Assembly: GCA_038845865.1 (NCBI GenBank)
Contig: JAWBQJ010000001.1
Coordinates: forward strand, 310,001 to 374,000
Direction: 5' to 3'
DNA: 64,000 nucleotides
DNA from: Desulfurococcaceae archaeon
GTDB taxonomy: Archaea; Thermoproteota; Thermoprotei_A; Sulfolobales; Desulfurococcaceae
The notes below the pieces were generated by a model. That model searched no databases, had not been told where the DNA came from, and saw only the letters and a list, made by a program, of their open reading frames with translations. This document shows, piece after piece, positions 13,315-30,228 of this stretch (its first letter is position 1; each line of letters opens with the position of its first letter). A program made the position numbers and the translations under genes.

Positions 13315-13644
13315 GTGATGCGGCCCGAAGAGGCGGCAACTACCAGGGAGAGGATTGTTGAGATTTTAAGGAGGAGTAGTAGACCGCTCACAGTTGATGA
13401 GATAGCGAGGGAGCTCGGTACCGATATAGCGGCCGAAGACGTGTACGAGCACCTAGTGCACGCCGCGAGATCACTACGTGCCAGGAGCGGTGGGCGGGAA
13501 ATATTAGTGATGGAGCCTCCTTACTGCAAGAAGTGCGGTTACGTGTTCAAAAACCTGAATAGGCCTAGAAAACCCAGTAGGTGTCCTCGCTGCAAAGGCG
13601 AGTGGGTGGCAGCCCCTAGGTTTACCATTGTCAGGAGAGGCTAG
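13315..13644 (+). CDS. Winged-helix/zinc-ribbon transcriptional regulator (predicted)
   Basis: A 109-residue archaeal regulator with an N-terminal winged helix-turn-helix (RERIVEILRRSSRPLTVDEIARELG, residues about 11-35) and a C-terminal zinc ribbon with two CXXC pairs (CKKCGYVFK and CPRCKGEW). This matches the family of predicted archaeal HTH/Zn-ribbon proteins. It begins 10 nt after the pyrophosphatase stop (GTG 13315 or ATG 13318) and is likely co-transcribed. Its last bases overlap the convergent last gene of the RiPP-like operon (CTAG shared stops). Target genes unknown. Confidence 0.8.
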   Translation: MMRPEEAATTRERIVEILRRSSRPLTVDEIARELGTDIAAEDVYEHLVHAARSLRARSGGREILVMEPPYCKKCGYVFKNLNRPRKPSRCPRCKGEWVAAPRFTIVRRG

Positions 13645-13994
13645 TAAACTGCTAGGAGCTTTTTAATTTCTCTCTTAAACTCCTCAGGGTCCCTGAGCAG
13701 CAGTTCTAACAGTTCCCTCGGATCTTTATGCCCTCTCGTCAGAGCGGTGACAGGCTTTAAGAAGGCCTCTAACATGATCAGGCTTGCCACCTCGGAGTTG
13801 GAGTAGATTTTCTGTATTACCTCGAAAACAAACTCCGGCTTCGTAATAAACGCTTCGAGTAAGCTCGATTTCAGTTTCAGCTTACAGTGCAGCTCTAGCA
13901 GTTCAAGTAGCCCGGGAAACTTGTTCTTTGCGTGCAACTTAATGTAGTCTACTACGCTCCCCGCCGCATCTACTGTACTAGTTAGCATTAACAC
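13641..13994 (-). CDS. Small helical protein, last gene of the radical-SAM peptide operon
   Basis: An unrecognised 117-residue protein rich in Leu/Lys helices. It begins 4 nt after the ABC permease stop, with GAGGTG before the GTG start, so it is the fifth gene of the operon running from 17102. It has no signal peptide and no clear membrane segment. It is related to the C-terminal half of the protein at 29396-30061: KFPGLLELLELHCKLKLKSS here against KSPGLAYTLDLYCMKFNNSD there, and KPEFVFEVIQKIYSNSEVAS against NPEAFKALLIRVYGSLQTVE, with both ending in an L-x-DP-x-x-(F/L) helix. A self-immunity, chaperone or adaptor role for the peptide is a guess from position. Confidence 0.7.
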   Translation of the reverse strand: MLMLTSTVDAAGSVVDYIKLHAKNKFPGLLELLELHCKLKLKSSLLEAFITKPEFVFEVIQKIYSNSEVASLIMLEAFLKPVTALTRGHKDPRELLELLLRDPEEFKREIKKLLAVY

Positions 13995-13998
13995 GAGC

Positions 13999-14745
13999 TC
14001 ACCTCTTCTCGATCACCGTTAAAACCCCGCCGCGAGTCTTGTACCACGTTAATGCGAAAAGTGCGAGCGAGAGCGCCGTTAGGTACGCGATCGACACCTC
14101 TGCAGGTACACCTTCGCTTAAGCCTATGCCCAGCCTGAGTAAGCAGACAATGTGCGTTACGGGGTTAGCAACTAAAATCTCTCTTAGTGGTTTGGTTAGC
14201 CCGAAGAGCCTGTAGTATAGTGGCGTGGCGACGATGACGAGCATCATTAGGGACATGAGTACGGGTTCTAATTTGTACCTGCTCCGAACGCTGAGCCCGA
14301 GAATTAGTGCCGTGAATGAGAAGATCGTCGTGGAGTACAGTAGTCCTAGCGCCATGTACGCTCCGTGTACGCTACCCGCGATGAGCACGAGTGTTACTAC
14401 TCCGAGAACTACTGGTGTGGAGCTGAAAATCAACTGCGAGATGACGTTTGATGCTAGAAGCACTCTCAGCGAAACGGGTAAGGTGGCATAGAGCTCTAGC
14501 GCCTGCTCTTCAAACATGTTTGCTATGGATATAGCCGTCGGGTACACCAGCGCGGAGAACGACGTCATTACCAGGAAGCCAGTTAAGCCGGTTGCCAGTG
14601 ACTCGGGGTTACCACCTGAAAACATCACTACTACGACGAGGTACGTGAAGGGCAGTACAACCGTGACCATTACGAGAGTCATCCAGAAAAGCCTGTACAT
14701 CTTGAGCGTGAAGGACACGGACTTTAACAGGGTGGAGAGCTTCAA
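13999..14745 (-). CDS. ABC-2 type transporter permease of the peptide operon
   Basis: Integral membrane protein of 248 residues with about six hydrophobic segments and no hydrolase or peptidase domain, as in ABC-2 exporters. Starts are MKLSTLLKSVSFTLKMYRLFWMTLVMVTVVLPFTYLVVVVMF-like (first helix near residues 20-42), and the last helix is followed by the short tail TRGGVLTVIEKR. TTG 14745 overlaps the ATPase stop (TTGA), showing coupled synthesis with the ATP-binding gene. Together they should export a small molecule or peptide; the gene order places the radical-SAM-modified peptide as the likely cargo (inference). Confidence 0.85.
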   Translation of the reverse strand: MKLSTLLKSVSFTLKMYRLFWMTLVMVTVVLPFTYLVVVVMFSGGNPESLATGLTGFLVMTSFSALVYPTAISIANMFEEQALELYATLPVSLRVLLASNVISQLIFSSTPVVLGVVTLVLIAGSVHGAYMALGLLYSTTIFSFTALILGLSVRSRYKLEPVLMSLMMLVIVATPLYYRLFGLTKPLREILVANPVTHIVCLLRLGIGLSEGVPAEVSIAYLTALSLALFALTWYKTRGGVLTVIEKR

Positions 14746-15650
14746 GGCTGTACACCCCTGATGTAGGACTCTAAGAGGGTCTCTATCGAGGGGTATTCGA
14801 GGTATATTTTAACGTCGTCCCTGAGTTCTCCGTTGAAGGCCAAGTTTTCGAGGTCTACTAGTGCGTCTAGTAAGGACCTGTACCTAGCAACTACAAGCCC
14901 CTCGTTGACAGCTATAACGCTTCTTTTCAGCAGCTGGGCCACCTTGTCAGCATACTTCGTCATCAACCTCACTTCTGCACCACCTTCTACTTTTTCGAGG
15001 GTTGAGAAGTGGTTCACTACCCTCCCGTAGACCATCAAGTACACCCTGTCGCATAGCCTCTTCACCTCTTCGAGGTCATGGCTTACCAGTAGTATGGTCT
15101 TCCCCCTGCTCTTTTCGTGTGCAAGTATGTCCCAAACCAATCTCTTCTTGAATATGTCGATGAAGCTCGTAGGCTCGTCTAGTATTAAGAGCTCGCTGTT
15201 CTTTATGAGTGAAAGCGCTAGTAGCAGTAGCTTTCTCTGACCCACGGACAGCTGGTAGCCCATTTTATCCCTAACGCCCCACAAGCCTAGGGATTGTAGT
15301 ACTTCATGTACCCTAGTGTACGGTGTGCCGGATAGATCCGCGATGAACTTAGCCACTTCTATGACCTTGTGCGAAGGGTACACTAGTGGTAGTTGCGGCG
15401 TGTATGAAACCTCCTTCCTGATGACGTCTTGTTTTTCAACGGGGTTAGAGCCTAAAACTGTGATCTTACCGCTCGTCGGTTTAAGCACACCGATAACTTG
15501 CCTGACTAGCGTTGTTTTGCCGGCACCGTTGGGCCCCATGAGGCAGACGGCTTCACCTCTATAGACCTCCACCGACACGTTGACATTAGCCTTAATGCCG
15601 TTAGGATAGATCTTCGTAACCTTTTCCGCGGCCACTACGAGGTCACTCAC
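14742..15650 (-). CDS. ABC transporter ATP-binding protein of the peptide operon
   Basis: ATPase of an ABC-2 exporter, 302 residues from the GTG at 15650, which lies inside the end of the radical SAM gene (8-nt overlap with its TGA). Walker A is LMGPNGAGKTTLV, the signature is YQLSVGQRKLLLLALSLI (LSVGQ in place of LSGGQ), Walker B is ELLILDEPTSFID, and the H-loop is ILLVSHD. A C-terminal extension of about 80 residues is of the type seen in drug/peptide exporters. Longer upstream frame (to 15707) would run through the maturase coding end and is not needed. Confidence 0.9.
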   Translation of the reverse strand: MSDLVVAAEKVTKIYPNGIKANVNVSVEVYRGEAVCLMGPNGAGKTTLVRQVIGVLKPTSGKITVLGSNPVEKQDVIRKEVSYTPQLPLVYPSHKVIEVAKFIADLSGTPYTRVHEVLQSLGLWGVRDKMGYQLSVGQRKLLLLALSLIKNSELLILDEPTSFIDIFKKRLVWDILAHEKSRGKTILLVSHDLEEVKRLCDRVYLMVYGRVVNHFSTLEKVEGGAEVRLMTKYADKVAQLLKRSVIAVNEGLVVARYRSLLDALVDLENLAFNGELRDDVKIYLEYPSIETLLESYIRGVQP

Positions 15651-16962
15651 CGGGCTCCACCAGCTCCCTGTACTTCGATACCGCGTAGGCGCGTAGGAGC
15701 CTCTCAAGGTGCTCTTCGCCGTAAAGTACTTTGAGGCACGTGGGCACGTTTTTCGACTTCAAGTAGATGCAACCACCGTAGCACATGGGCGCGTACTTGC
15801 AGTTCTTGGTGCACGGGGGATCGTAGACTACTGGGTGGAACTTCTCCGGCGATACCACAATGGTTTTTTCATCCACTATCCTGCCTATAGGTGTCCCGTA
15901 CATGTACGCTGGACATAGGTAGACGTTTAGCTTTTCATCCACCGCGTACCCGTTTACGTACTTGCATATGCACGGGCCTTTAACGAAGACCTTGGAGATC
16001 TTGAATCCTCTTTCAACCGCGTACTCTAGTACTTCCACTATTTTCCTCGATACGCTCATATAGTACTCGTGGTAGTTCTTCGACGTCTTGAACGGCGTGT
16101 AGTTAGCGACCTGCTCGGGGTGTACAGGTGACAGGTCCACGGCTACGACCTTTTTTTGTAACCCCAAGTCTGCTAGGAAGTCCACTAGCTCGCGTGCCCT
16201 CTCGATATTGTGTTCATCGACGTTAACCCTTATGCCGATGCTCTTGTGGTGCTTATCTACGAAGGCGAGTGTGTTGTCCACTATCGTGCTGAATGATCCG
16301 CGGCCGTTCTTGAAAGGTCTTCGACCATCATGAACCTCCTTTACGCCGTCTACGGTTACTTGTATCGTATTAACCGCTGTAACTACCTCTTCCACGTCTT
16401 TGCTGTAAATAGTGCCGTTAGTTATTACTGCGAGCTCCTTCTTAATACCGTACTCGGAAGCGAGCCTCTCTACGTCTTTAACCACTTTCTTCGCCATTGA
16501 GGTATTTAGTAGCGGTTCACCACCGTAAAGTGCTATGGCTATGAAGTCTGTTCCCCCTTTAACCCTCCTCTCGAGTAGGCCGTGTAGACTGTGCCACTCT
16601 CTCTCTGAAAGATCGTAACCATCCATGCTGGGTCTTAGAGATTGGTAGCAGTATATGCAGGCGAGGTTGCAGCGGCTCGTGAGGCCTAGGAAGAGCGAAA
16701 TGGCCTTTTTAGTGAATCTGAGTTCGCGTGATAGACGGTGATGTACCTCGTCTTCGAGGATGCCATCGTCTAGAATGACGTTAACCGAGAGAAGTTGCCT
16801 GTAAATTTCAGTGTCTGAAAGGAGGGGCCTTAAATCACCCCGCTTAATGGCGAGGCCTACTTCCCTATCAACTAAAAGGAGGGAACCGTGAAAGGTGTTG
16901 TAAACGAGGTCGAAGGAGGAGTTGAAGGGAAAAACCAAGTTGAACTTGGACAGCTTGACCAC
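15643..16962 (-). CDS. Radical SAM/SPASM peptide maturase
   Basis: Radical SAM enzyme of 439 residues with the [4Fe-4S] motif SRCNLACIYCYQ (Cys 98, 102, 105; CX3CX2C), GGEP at 147-150 (SAM binding) and a C-terminal SPASM domain with eight cysteines (331, 333, 350, 384, 388, 394, 398, 409; ends CTKNCKYAPMCYGGC), which binds auxiliary clusters. Residues 1-85 form a separate domain beginning FNLVFPFNSSFDLVYNTFHGSLLLVD, as in maturases of sactipeptides and ranthipeptides. GTG start. It lies 20 nt behind a 39-codon three-Cys peptide gene and 8 nt into an ABC exporter ATPase. I infer thioether or other radical crosslinking of that peptide; an anaerobic sulfatase-maturase role is less likely since no sulfatase is near. 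Confidence 0.9.
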   Translation of the reverse strand: MVKLSKFNLVFPFNSSFDLVYNTFHGSLLLVDREVGLAIKRGDLRPLLSDTEIYRQLLSVNVILDDGILEDEVHHRLSRELRFTKKAISLFLGLTSRCNLACIYCYQSLRPSMDGYDLSEREWHSLHGLLERRVKGGTDFIAIALYGGEPLLNTSMAKKVVKDVERLASEYGIKKELAVITNGTIYSKDVEEVVTAVNTIQVTVDGVKEVHDGRRPFKNGRGSFSTIVDNTLAFVDKHHKSIGIRVNVDEHNIERARELVDFLADLGLQKKVVAVDLSPVHPEQVANYTPFKTSKNYHEYYMSVSRKIVEVLEYAVERGFKISKVFVKGPCICKYVNGYAVDEKLNVYLCPAYMYGTPIGRIVDEKTIVVSPEKFHPVVYDPPCTKNCKYAPMCYGGCIYLKSKNVPTCLKVLYGEEHLERLLRAYAVSKYRELVEPGE

Positions 16963-16982
16963 TATAGATTACCCTAATTACC

Positions 16983-17102
16983 CTAGTCTGGCGCTATGAT
17001 GAGGCCTCCGCAAACGAGCGAGCAGTACGGACCACAGAAGTTGGGCTCTCTCACATTTATTTTACTCTTCTCGAGGACTATAATGCGTGTTTTAACCTTC
17101 AT
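16983..17102 (-). CDS. Candidate RiPP precursor peptide, 39 residues, three cysteines
   Basis: Short gene directly upstream of the radical SAM maturase. ATG 17102 follows GGGGGTGAAA, one of the best ribosome sites in the window, and a TATA box lies at 17135-17142. The first 20 residues (starting MKVKTRIIVLEKSK) are basic and look like a leader. The remainder, NFCGPYCSLVCGGLIIAPD (residues 21-39), has Cys 23, 27 and 31 in a CX3CX3C array followed by Gly-Gly. The stop is 20 nt before the maturase GTG. Leader-plus-Cys-core next to a SPASM maturase and an ABC exporter is the layout of a sactipeptide/ranthipeptide locus. The gene is below usual length cut-offs. No known precursor family comes to mind. 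Confidence 0.8.
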   Translation of the reverse strand: MKVKTRIIVLEKSKINVREPNFCGPYCSLVCGGLIIAPD

Positions 17103-17134
17103 TTTCACCCCCACTACCTACTGTGGTATGCGGC

Positions 17135-17185
17135 CTTATAAACGTTTCGAGTATTTCCGAATAACCAAAACTACTAATTTATAAA
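17135..17185. promoter_or_regulatory. Back-to-back promoters of the peptide operon and its regulator
   Basis: On the minus strand TTTATAAG (17135-17142) with BRE-like CGAAAC (17144-17149) should drive the peptide operon, with transcription starting near 17112. On the plus strand TTTATAAA (17178-17185) should drive the regulator gene, starting near 17210. Between them, TATT-TCCG-AATA (17152-17163) is a short inverted repeat that could be an operator. Positions are seen; function is inferred. Confidence 0.6.
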
Positions 17186-17231
17186 GCCCTAATTAGCTAT
17201 CGAAGTCATTAGTAAGATACTGGGGGGAGTT

Positions 17232-17795
17232 GTGAGCGGCGATCCGGTGGGTGAGTACAGTAAGCGCGTATTCATAGGAACACATGGTTTGTTTACCAGG
17301 GGGCTTGCCACGTTGGAGAATCCCACGAGAAAGGCGATAGTGTACTTGCTGGCAATGCGCGGGCCTCTCACGCTTAAGGAGCTCTCAGAAGAGCTGAATT
17401 TAGCACCTTCAACGGTTCACGAGCACCTCAGGAGGTTAAAGGAAATCGGTTTCATCGAAGAGGCATCGGAGCACCCCAAGAAGTTTAAAGTCGAAATTTA
17501 CTATAGGTTAACGCTACCATACATATTGTTCAGCGAGCTGTCCTCTCTGAGGGAACGCTTATCTACGCAGATAGATGTCCTTAAAAAGCACGTAGCTGGC
17601 CTAATCGACGAAATAGGGGGTATTCTAGCAGAGAGATCTGAGCTCAAGTGCCTGGAGACCGTGCCGGAACATCTCAGGAAAAAGGTGCTACGTAACCTCT
17701 CACTGGCGTTGGTAGTACAGGCCTCAGTCATTATTCTAAGGGAGCTCGCTGGGGAGTCTTTTGTTTACGCTTTAATCAACGACTTGGAGGACTAG
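17232..17795 (+). CDS. ArsR-like winged-helix regulator divergent from the peptide operon
   Basis: A 187-residue protein with a winged helix-turn-helix near residues 36-80 (NPTRKAIVYLLAMRGPLTLKELSEELNLAPSTVHEHLRRLKEIGFIEE region) and a helical C-terminal half with a hydrophobic stretch (NLSLALVVQASVIILREL), suited to dimerisation or ligand sensing. GTG 17232 is preceded by GGGGGGAG. It is transcribed away from the peptide operon with only about 130 bp between, so it is the obvious candidate regulator. Both TATA boxes lie in that gap. The effector is unknown. Alternatively it controls only itself. Confidence 0.8.
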   Translation: MSGDPVGEYSKRVFIGTHGLFTRGLATLENPTRKAIVYLLAMRGPLTLKELSEELNLAPSTVHEHLRRLKEIGFIEEASEHPKKFKVEIYYRLTLPYILFSELSSLRERLSTQIDVLKKHVAGLIDEIGGILAERSELKCLETVPEHLRKKVLRNLSLALVVQASVIILRELAGESFVYALINDLED

Positions 17796-29395: not shown

Positions 29396-30061
29396 CTATT
29401 CCCGTTTCAGCATTTCTCTCAGTCTTTCACGTAGGCTGCTCGGATCGGTCATGAACACCTCGACCAGGGAGTCTACCGCTTCCGAATTCTCGTCTCCTAG
29501 TATGAGTGAAAGGTACATTTTTGCAATGAGTTCCACGGTCTGTAGCGACCCGTAAACCCTAATTAAAAGGGCTTTAAAGGCTTCGGGGTTGTCTAGTAAC
29601 AAGGCTATGCAATCACTATTGTTAAACTTCATGCAGTATAGGTCAAGGGTATAAGCTAGTCCTGGACTTTTAGCATTAATACGGTTCTTAAGCTGCTTGG
29701 AGAAGGTTTCATAGAGTGCTTGAAAGACCAAGTCGGTGAAAGTCAGCTTCTTCACGCTTTTCTCGGATCCGTATAGAAGTGAAAGTAAGATTATGTTTCT
29801 GGTAAACTCCTCGCTCACGGCCTCTCCACTCTTCATCTCTAAAAACTGGATCATCGCTGACAGCTTGGGCATGTTCTTCGGGCCAATGCTCTTTTGCAAG
29901 ATACTCTTGATCTCCTCCTTGGAGAGGGCCTTAACTAGCTCTTTGAATAGGGCAATTCTTCCGTGAACGTCTTCGTTTAAAGGCTCCTCTAGAGTGATAG
30001 GTGGTTGAAGTGGGTTGGGGTCTTTGCTTCTTGCGGCTTTTCTGATATCAGTGAACTTCAC
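29396..30061 (-). CDS. Unknown helical protein, homologue of the last RiPP-operon gene
   Basis: About 221 residues, all-helical, no signal or membrane segment. The C-terminal 110 residues align with the 117-residue protein at 13641-13994 (KSPGLAYTLDLYC, NPEAFKALLIRVYGS and the closing DPSSLRERLREML correspond to KFPGLLELLELHC, KPEFVFEVIQKIYSN and DPEEFKREIKKLL). The N-terminal 110 residues are extra and contain AKKALS-type helices (LFKELVKALSKEEIKSILQK). GTG 30061 is preceded by GAGGTG, better than TTG 30082. A TATA-like TTATTAAG lies near 30175-30185. I see no radical SAM or transporter partner beside this copy. Confidence 0.65.
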   Translation of the reverse strand: MKFTDIRKAARSKDPNPLQPPITLEEPLNEDVHGRIALFKELVKALSKEEIKSILQKSIGPKNMPKLSAMIQFLEMKSGEAVSEEFTRNIILLSLLYGSEKSVKKLTFTDLVFQALYETFSKQLKNRINAKSPGLAYTLDLYCMKFNNSDCIALLLDNPEAFKALLIRVYGSLQTVELIAKMYLSLILGDENSEAVDSLVEVFMTDPSSLRERLREMLKRE

Positions 30062-30228
30062 TATCCACCTCACCACAGGCAATTATGTACTTGAACACCC
30101 TGGCAATCTTACCCACCTAATCATTGGTAGTGGAAGAAGCGCTTTCCCCATAAATTGGCAAATACCAGTGTTCCTTAATAAGTTTAATCGTACTCGGTAT
30201 AGTATGTAGCGGTAGTGCCGATCTCTCC

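Follow-up and report, generated by a model that had tools for sequence, protein, structure and literature searches.

The closest described relatives of the system reported here are radical SAM/SPASM enzymes that act on short peptides. The CefB, geopeptide, TIGR04463 and Clo7bot maturases (NF038107, TIGR04280, TIGR04463 and TIGR04334) have, according to their family descriptions, short cysteine-rich partner peptides, and PapB and CteB (SCIFF) likewise act on cysteine-bearing precursors, PapB by linking cysteine to aspartate or glutamate (PMC9413430). Thuricin CD-type sactipeptides combine a C-x3-C-x3-C core motif and a short precursor with an ABC transporter in the cluster (PMC3132745). Archaeal RiPPs comprise haloarchaeal lanthipeptides and ranthi- and sactipeptide-type radical SAM clusters predicted in bulk, TACK archaea included; the characterised archaeal RiPPs in that work are LanM products (PMC12144867). 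In the open-access literature, we found no study of a crenarchaeal radical SAM RiPP, and nothing relevant on crenarchaeal sactipeptides, Sulfolobus RiPPs or geopeptides.

The locus described here lies on an archaeal contig, in a 64-kb stretch (G000:C1:310001-374000) that was analysed as a whole and is called the window below. Five minus-strand genes extend from 17102 down to 13641, in the 5' to 3' order precursor, radical SAM/SPASM maturase, ABC ATPase, ABC-2 permease and small helical protein, and are divergent from a regulator gene. The features, in window coordinates, are as follows.

16983..17102, minus strand: RiPP precursor, 39 residues, MKVKTRIIVLEKSKINVREPNFCGPYCSLVCGGLIIAPD
17067..17084, minus strand: leader motif IIVLEK (residues 7–12), putative RRE-binding strand
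16986..17042, minus strand: core region NFCGPYCSLVCGGLIIAPD (residues 21–39), with Cys23, Cys27 and Cys31
15643..16962, minus strand: radical SAM/SPASM peptide maturase, 439 residues (Pfam Radical_SAM, 4e-14)
16708..16962, minus strand: N-terminal maturase domain of about 85 residues, putative RRE (PqqD-like) by topology
14742..15650, minus strand: ABC transporter ATPase (DrrA-like), 302 residues (ABC_tran, 1.4e-28; drrA is the best NCBIfam match)
13999..14745, minus strand: ABC-2 type permease, 248 residues (ABC2_membrane_3, 7.7e-05, below gathering)
13641..13994, minus strand: putative NitrOD5-family, archaeal death-domain-like helical protein, 117 residues
17136..17142, minus strand: TATA-like box of the precursor operon
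17145..17162, plus strand: conserved inter-promoter element TTTCGAGTATTTCCGAAT, probable regulator-binding site or BRE of the precursor promoter
17178..17185, plus strand: TATA-like box TTTATAAA of the regulator gene
17232..17795, plus strand: divergent ArsR-type winged-helix regulator, 187 residues (HTH_5/ArsR, E 1.2e-13)

The precursor and maturase genes are separated by 20 nt, the maturase and ATPase genes overlap by 8 nt (counting the ATPase from the GTG at 15650), the ATPase and permease genes overlap by 4 nt, and 4 nt separate the permease gene from that of the helical protein. The preliminary description of this DNA had claimed this packing on one strand, together with a divergent ArsR-like regulator, back-to-back TATA boxes and the lack of a leader peptidase; each of these was found as described, and no protease is linked to the cassette. 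The surroundings are archaeal in type, with a deoxyhypusine-synthase-like neighbour at the locus, KaiC paralogues, and TATA boxes. The adjoining pyrophosphatase gene has as its best solved structure match 1qez, the Sulfolobus acidocaldarius enzyme.

The precursor gene starts at an ATG with a Shine-Dalgarno-like run, GGGGGTGA, in front of it, and an in-frame GTG lies at 17114. The encoded peptide, a leader of about 20 residues followed by a C-terminal cysteine core, has no match in NCBIfam or Pfam, and the precursors of related loci are likewise without an NCBIfam match. The open reading frame is not a chance occurrence, because three congeners (G003, G002 and G007) have it before their maturase gene as well (E 3e-12 to 3e-7). 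The congener peptides are 43–56% identical to the window copy and share the invariant pattern ILE...E-NFCxxxCxxVC; in the core, Asn21, Phe22, Cys23, Cys27, Val30 and Cys31 are invariant in four genomes. A second candidate in G002 (C1:82944, E 0.0017) has no maturase near it, overlaps a coding gene on the opposite strand, and was taken as chance. In the leader, the pattern hydrophobic-hydrophobic-x-[LI]-[EQKR]-[KREA], an expression picked post hoc with the sequences already in view, occurs in 12 of 13 precursors, compared with 0.8% of 3221 background small open reading frames.

The maturase carries CxxxCxxC at residues 98–105 and auxiliary-cluster cysteines at 331, 350, 384, 388, 394, 398 and 409. 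In 28 aligned homologues, C98, C102, C105, C331, C350, C388, C394, C398 and C409 are invariant, and C384 is present in at least 90%. The predicted model (pLDDT 89.6) begins with strands and then helices, next the radical SAM barrel, and last the SPASM region. The N-terminal strands are predicted at residues 2–4, 8–12, 17–22 and 27–32, helices follow, and the model aligns structurally with CteB over its full length; by this topology, we infer that the N-terminal domain is RRE-like. Structural matches are headed by CteB and TigE, and profile matches by CteB.

Like the CefB, geopeptide, TIGR04463 and Clo7bot enzymes, which it resembles over the full length from the N-terminal domain to the end of the SPASM region, the maturase falls into a clade of RiPP maturases, yet it reaches only 107–184 bits where the curated cut-offs of these families are 400–600: 184 against 600 for CefB, 163 against 400 for the geopeptide maturase and 158 against 525 for TIGR04463. 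The scores are lower for PapB (NF047865; 108 bits, cut-off 340), the SCIFF maturase (TIGR03974; 84 bits, cut-off 425) and the anaerobic sulfatase maturase (TIGR03942; 60 bits, cut-off 349). On these scores, each of them far under the curated cut-off, assignment to a named NCBIfam family of maturases was rejected. In a maximum-likelihood tree, the enzyme groups with CefB-, geopeptide- and TIGR04463-like and other archaeal enzymes (97/99), apart from the CteB/SCIFF-like enzymes and anSME; its nearest rows are enzymes of G498, a genome discussed below, and the deeper order within the clade, which has several long branches, is not firm. By sequence, then, the maturase belongs with the RiPP maturases and not with the sulfatase maturases, a separation that the preliminary description had named as its own check.

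The window system differs from the CefB-to-Clo7bot group also in being archaeal and in having a NitrOD5-type partner. Its core lacks the Cys-x3-Asp/Glu pattern that would suit PapB chemistry, and CteB, although the nearest solved structure, sits with its SCIFF-like relatives in a separate clade. The C-x3-C-x3-C motif of thuricin CD-type peptides is present (CGPYCSLVC, C23/C27/C31); however, there is one maturase rather than two, the organism is an archaeon, and only 8 residues follow the last cysteine, too few for the three-bridge hairpin of thuricin CD. Unlike the LanM-made archaeal RiPPs, the system has a radical SAM enzyme. The preliminary statement that no such crenarchaeal system is described stands for a characterised system of this make-up, and is limited to that, because radical SAM RiPP clusters in TACK archaea have been predicted by software and published in bulk (PMC12144867).

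Within the genus, the block occupies the same place, between PF0610-like and deoxyhypusine-synthase-like genes, in three of seven congeners. All five genes are present in G003, and G002 and G007 have the precursor, maturase, helical protein and regulator without the ABC genes. In G004, G005 and G006, the two flanking genes adjoin directly and the entire unit, including the regulator, is absent. Co-conservation in fixed order, the other check named at the outset, is accordingly borne out, with the block syntenic in four genomes and missing as a unit in three. Identity to the window copy is 54–57% for the maturase, 47–54% for the regulator and 33–35% for the helical protein in G003, G002 and G007. 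Four flanking proteins gave a tree, rooted on G012, with moderate bootstrap values of 81–85% at the relevant forks; it fits a cassette that was ancestral in the genus and lost once in G004–G006, and an exporter that was lost in the pair G002 and G007.

A permease homologue occurs only in G003 among 37 genomes, and none was found in G002 or G007. Relocation of the exporter in these two was considered and rejected, since there is no permease homologue and the best ATPases are merely generic (at most 38% identity). The exporter is thus not obligatory, judging from the two congeners without it, and export is perhaps non-essential, because both retain peptide, maturase, helical protein and regulator with no close exporter homologue. 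Of the "dedicated exporter" proposed earlier, the presence of the ABC genes stands, here and after related maturases elsewhere in the phylum, but they are missing from two of the four cassette-bearing congeners.

Beyond the genus, a precursor (KIGIAVLEKEITSVEDPNFCGFCGMFCASILCMG) lies before the same ABC pair in G128, a member of a different family of the order that also has the regulator; the G128 and G003 ATPases share 52% identity, and no maturase adjoins the precursor and ABC genes. In this copy (L192 6966-8782), precursor and regulator are intact and both ABC genes are frameshifted; it is either a decaying cluster or an assembly error. A survey of 398 genomes of the phylum, which we take to be Thermoproteota, placed related maturases (140–267 bits) in four families other than f11, a family treated below. 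The maturase precedes an ABC ATPase and permease in G498 (first copy), G247 and G422, and a fused ABC exporter in G459; the G226 maturase has a short frame that runs on into the ATPase. A short cysteine-bearing open reading frame lies just upstream at all five loci, for example MKVIILEKGSKAWYRYTACNTVGCGQNCTPVGCGSFISPY in G226 and VLVLERAKSTMLTEPNFFCGSFISPVRT in G498, and an ArsR-type regulator is encoded divergently from the second G498 copy. The precursor at L216 2541-3999, MEIIPLREGSCTFDDCGVCDCFQSICNYCAPPKEPSTW, has six cysteines; after it come a maturase and a fused TMD-NBD exporter, an exporter of another type within this family of systems.

Within the class, the sole other carriers are 16 genomes of f11, a second family of the order and by inference the Sulfolobaceae. 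Their maturase is preceded by a 24–25-residue open reading frame, M...KVVKIERKMGRCNYSPSWG[EQ], conserved across genera at the loci compared (L224 1414-1488; L231 1422-1496; L235 1414-1488; L227 2715-2789, minus strand; L236 2692-2769, minus strand). Directly before the radical SAM/SPASM enzyme, this peptide (KKVVKIERKMGRCNYSPSWGQ and similar) is nearly invariant in six genera, and it is probably a RiPP precursor of its own. Beside the same maturase lies a conserved protein of 168–181 residues with a CxxC-type cysteine cluster and no Pfam match (L050 6669-7175; L051 6739-7284).

The small protein at the end of the operon is present and helical, as first described, but it appears to be of the NitrOD5/death-domain-like family and is not a known RiPP component. 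It scores 16.7 bits against PF11537 (gathering score 27), and 11 of 22 family members match this model at E up to 1 (best 3e-7). The predicted structure has seven helices (pLDDT 87.6), and its best fold match is PH0832 (2p9x; TM 0.56/0.66, E 0.036). At E up to 0.1, 30 of 61 genomes have paralogues, with five copies in the window genome, and about 9 of the 16 paralogous sites inspected have a KaiC-type ATPase as neighbour, judged on N-terminal sequence and confirmed by Pfam at one. In the window itself, the C-terminal half of a 228-residue protein (29396-30082, minus strand) is a paralogue of it. Because of its NitrOD5/death-domain-like similarity and these KaiC-type neighbours, the helical protein looks like a signalling-type protein that was recruited to, and kept with, the peptide and maturase.

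The regulator is kept in all cassette-bearing congeners and is missing where the cassette is missing. Between the divergent promoters, right before the TATA box that serves the precursor operon, the element TTTCG-N4-TTTCC[GT]AAT (in the window, TTTCG...TTTCCGAAT) occurs in the four cassette congeners and in G128, that is, at five loci including one in another family. The 64-kb window contains it once; 30 simulated windows contained no copy. Direct control by the regulator through this element, as repressor or as activator, is likely, because the footprint is conserved together with the regulator.

With the gene set, its co-inheritance, the enzyme class, the cluster ligands, the core cysteines and the promoter element established from sequence, the locus is very probably a genuine RiPP biosynthesis cassette that would modify a peptide through cross-links, export it where an exporter is present, and regulate its production. 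The RRE-like domain would grip the leader strand IIVLEK, and the 5'-deoxyadenosyl radical, together with the auxiliary FeS clusters, would form intramolecular cross-links. Cysteine thioethers are the probable outcome, and CteB, the nearest structure, is a thioether-forming enzyme; a single thioether topology cannot suit all loci, because the number of cysteines per precursor ranges from 1 to 6. Further points against the reading as a whole are the G128 copy, which has no maturase beside it, the two congeners without an exporter, and the lack of a linked protease. A host protease would then cut off the leader near EPN, the ABC-2 pair, where present, would export the product, and the regulator would act on both transcripts by way of the shared element. 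For the helical protein, we propose a role as adaptor or immunity partner, linked with peptide and maturase and not with export; the product most likely acts outside the cell, as an antagonist or a signal.

That the product instead remains intracellular, a peptide with a redox, metal or cofactor-like role of the PQQ or mycofactocin type, with the ABC pair dispensable or moving something else, is suggested by G002 and G007, which hold the cassette without the exporter, and by the near-invariant f11 peptide, which would suit a fixed role. However, in the majority of distant relatives, in the window genome and in G003, the genes after the maturase are ABC genes, the flanking-gene tree fits loss of the exporter rather than gain, no dedicated peptidase or dehydrogenase is linked, and presence in the genus is patchy; we regard an intracellular role as unlikely. 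It is extremely improbable that the enzyme is a sulfatase maturase or a general enzyme next to a chance frame. anSME, a SPASM enzyme like the maturase, does rank among the nearest solved structures, but the sequence scores and the tree separate the two, the small frame is conserved in place in four genomes, and no sulfatase gene lies in the cassette. A defence-system reading was set aside, as the PADLOC matches reflect just generic ATPase, viperin-fold and wHTH similarity.

The peptide could also be a signal, internal or quorum-like, that the death-domain-like adaptor and a network of KaiC ATPases would read. NitrOD5 has been placed in an archaeal "Death domain-like" family, and KaiC ATPases have been described as signalling hubs (PMC5847659); moreover, the multi-copy family of the helical protein often adjoins KaiC-type genes, and the protein is retained where the exporter was lost. 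Against this, the cassette has no KaiC gene, a NitrOD5-type protein was not recognised in the distant clusters inspected, and an immunity role would give the same picture. Such a signalling module is conceivable, if doubtful, and the exported antagonist or signal remains our preferred reading. Also doubtful is a wider proposal, of a Thermoproteota-wide class of archaeal radical SAM RiPPs that share a leader strand of very small length (hydrophobic-LE[KR]); at least within this genus, the adaptor would couple a signal peptide to KaiC-centred signalling.

In sum, the cassette is very probably a real archaeal radical SAM RiPP system, apparently without a characterised example, in a domain where characterised RiPPs are few and where we found none made by a crenarchaeal radical SAM maturase in the open-access literature. 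It offers a precursor–enzyme pair from a thermophile that is amenable to test, and thermostable radical SAM maturases are potential tools for peptide cross-linking. The shared leader motif provides a handle for finding more such systems, and the unexpected partner protein may tie peptide making to archaeal signalling.
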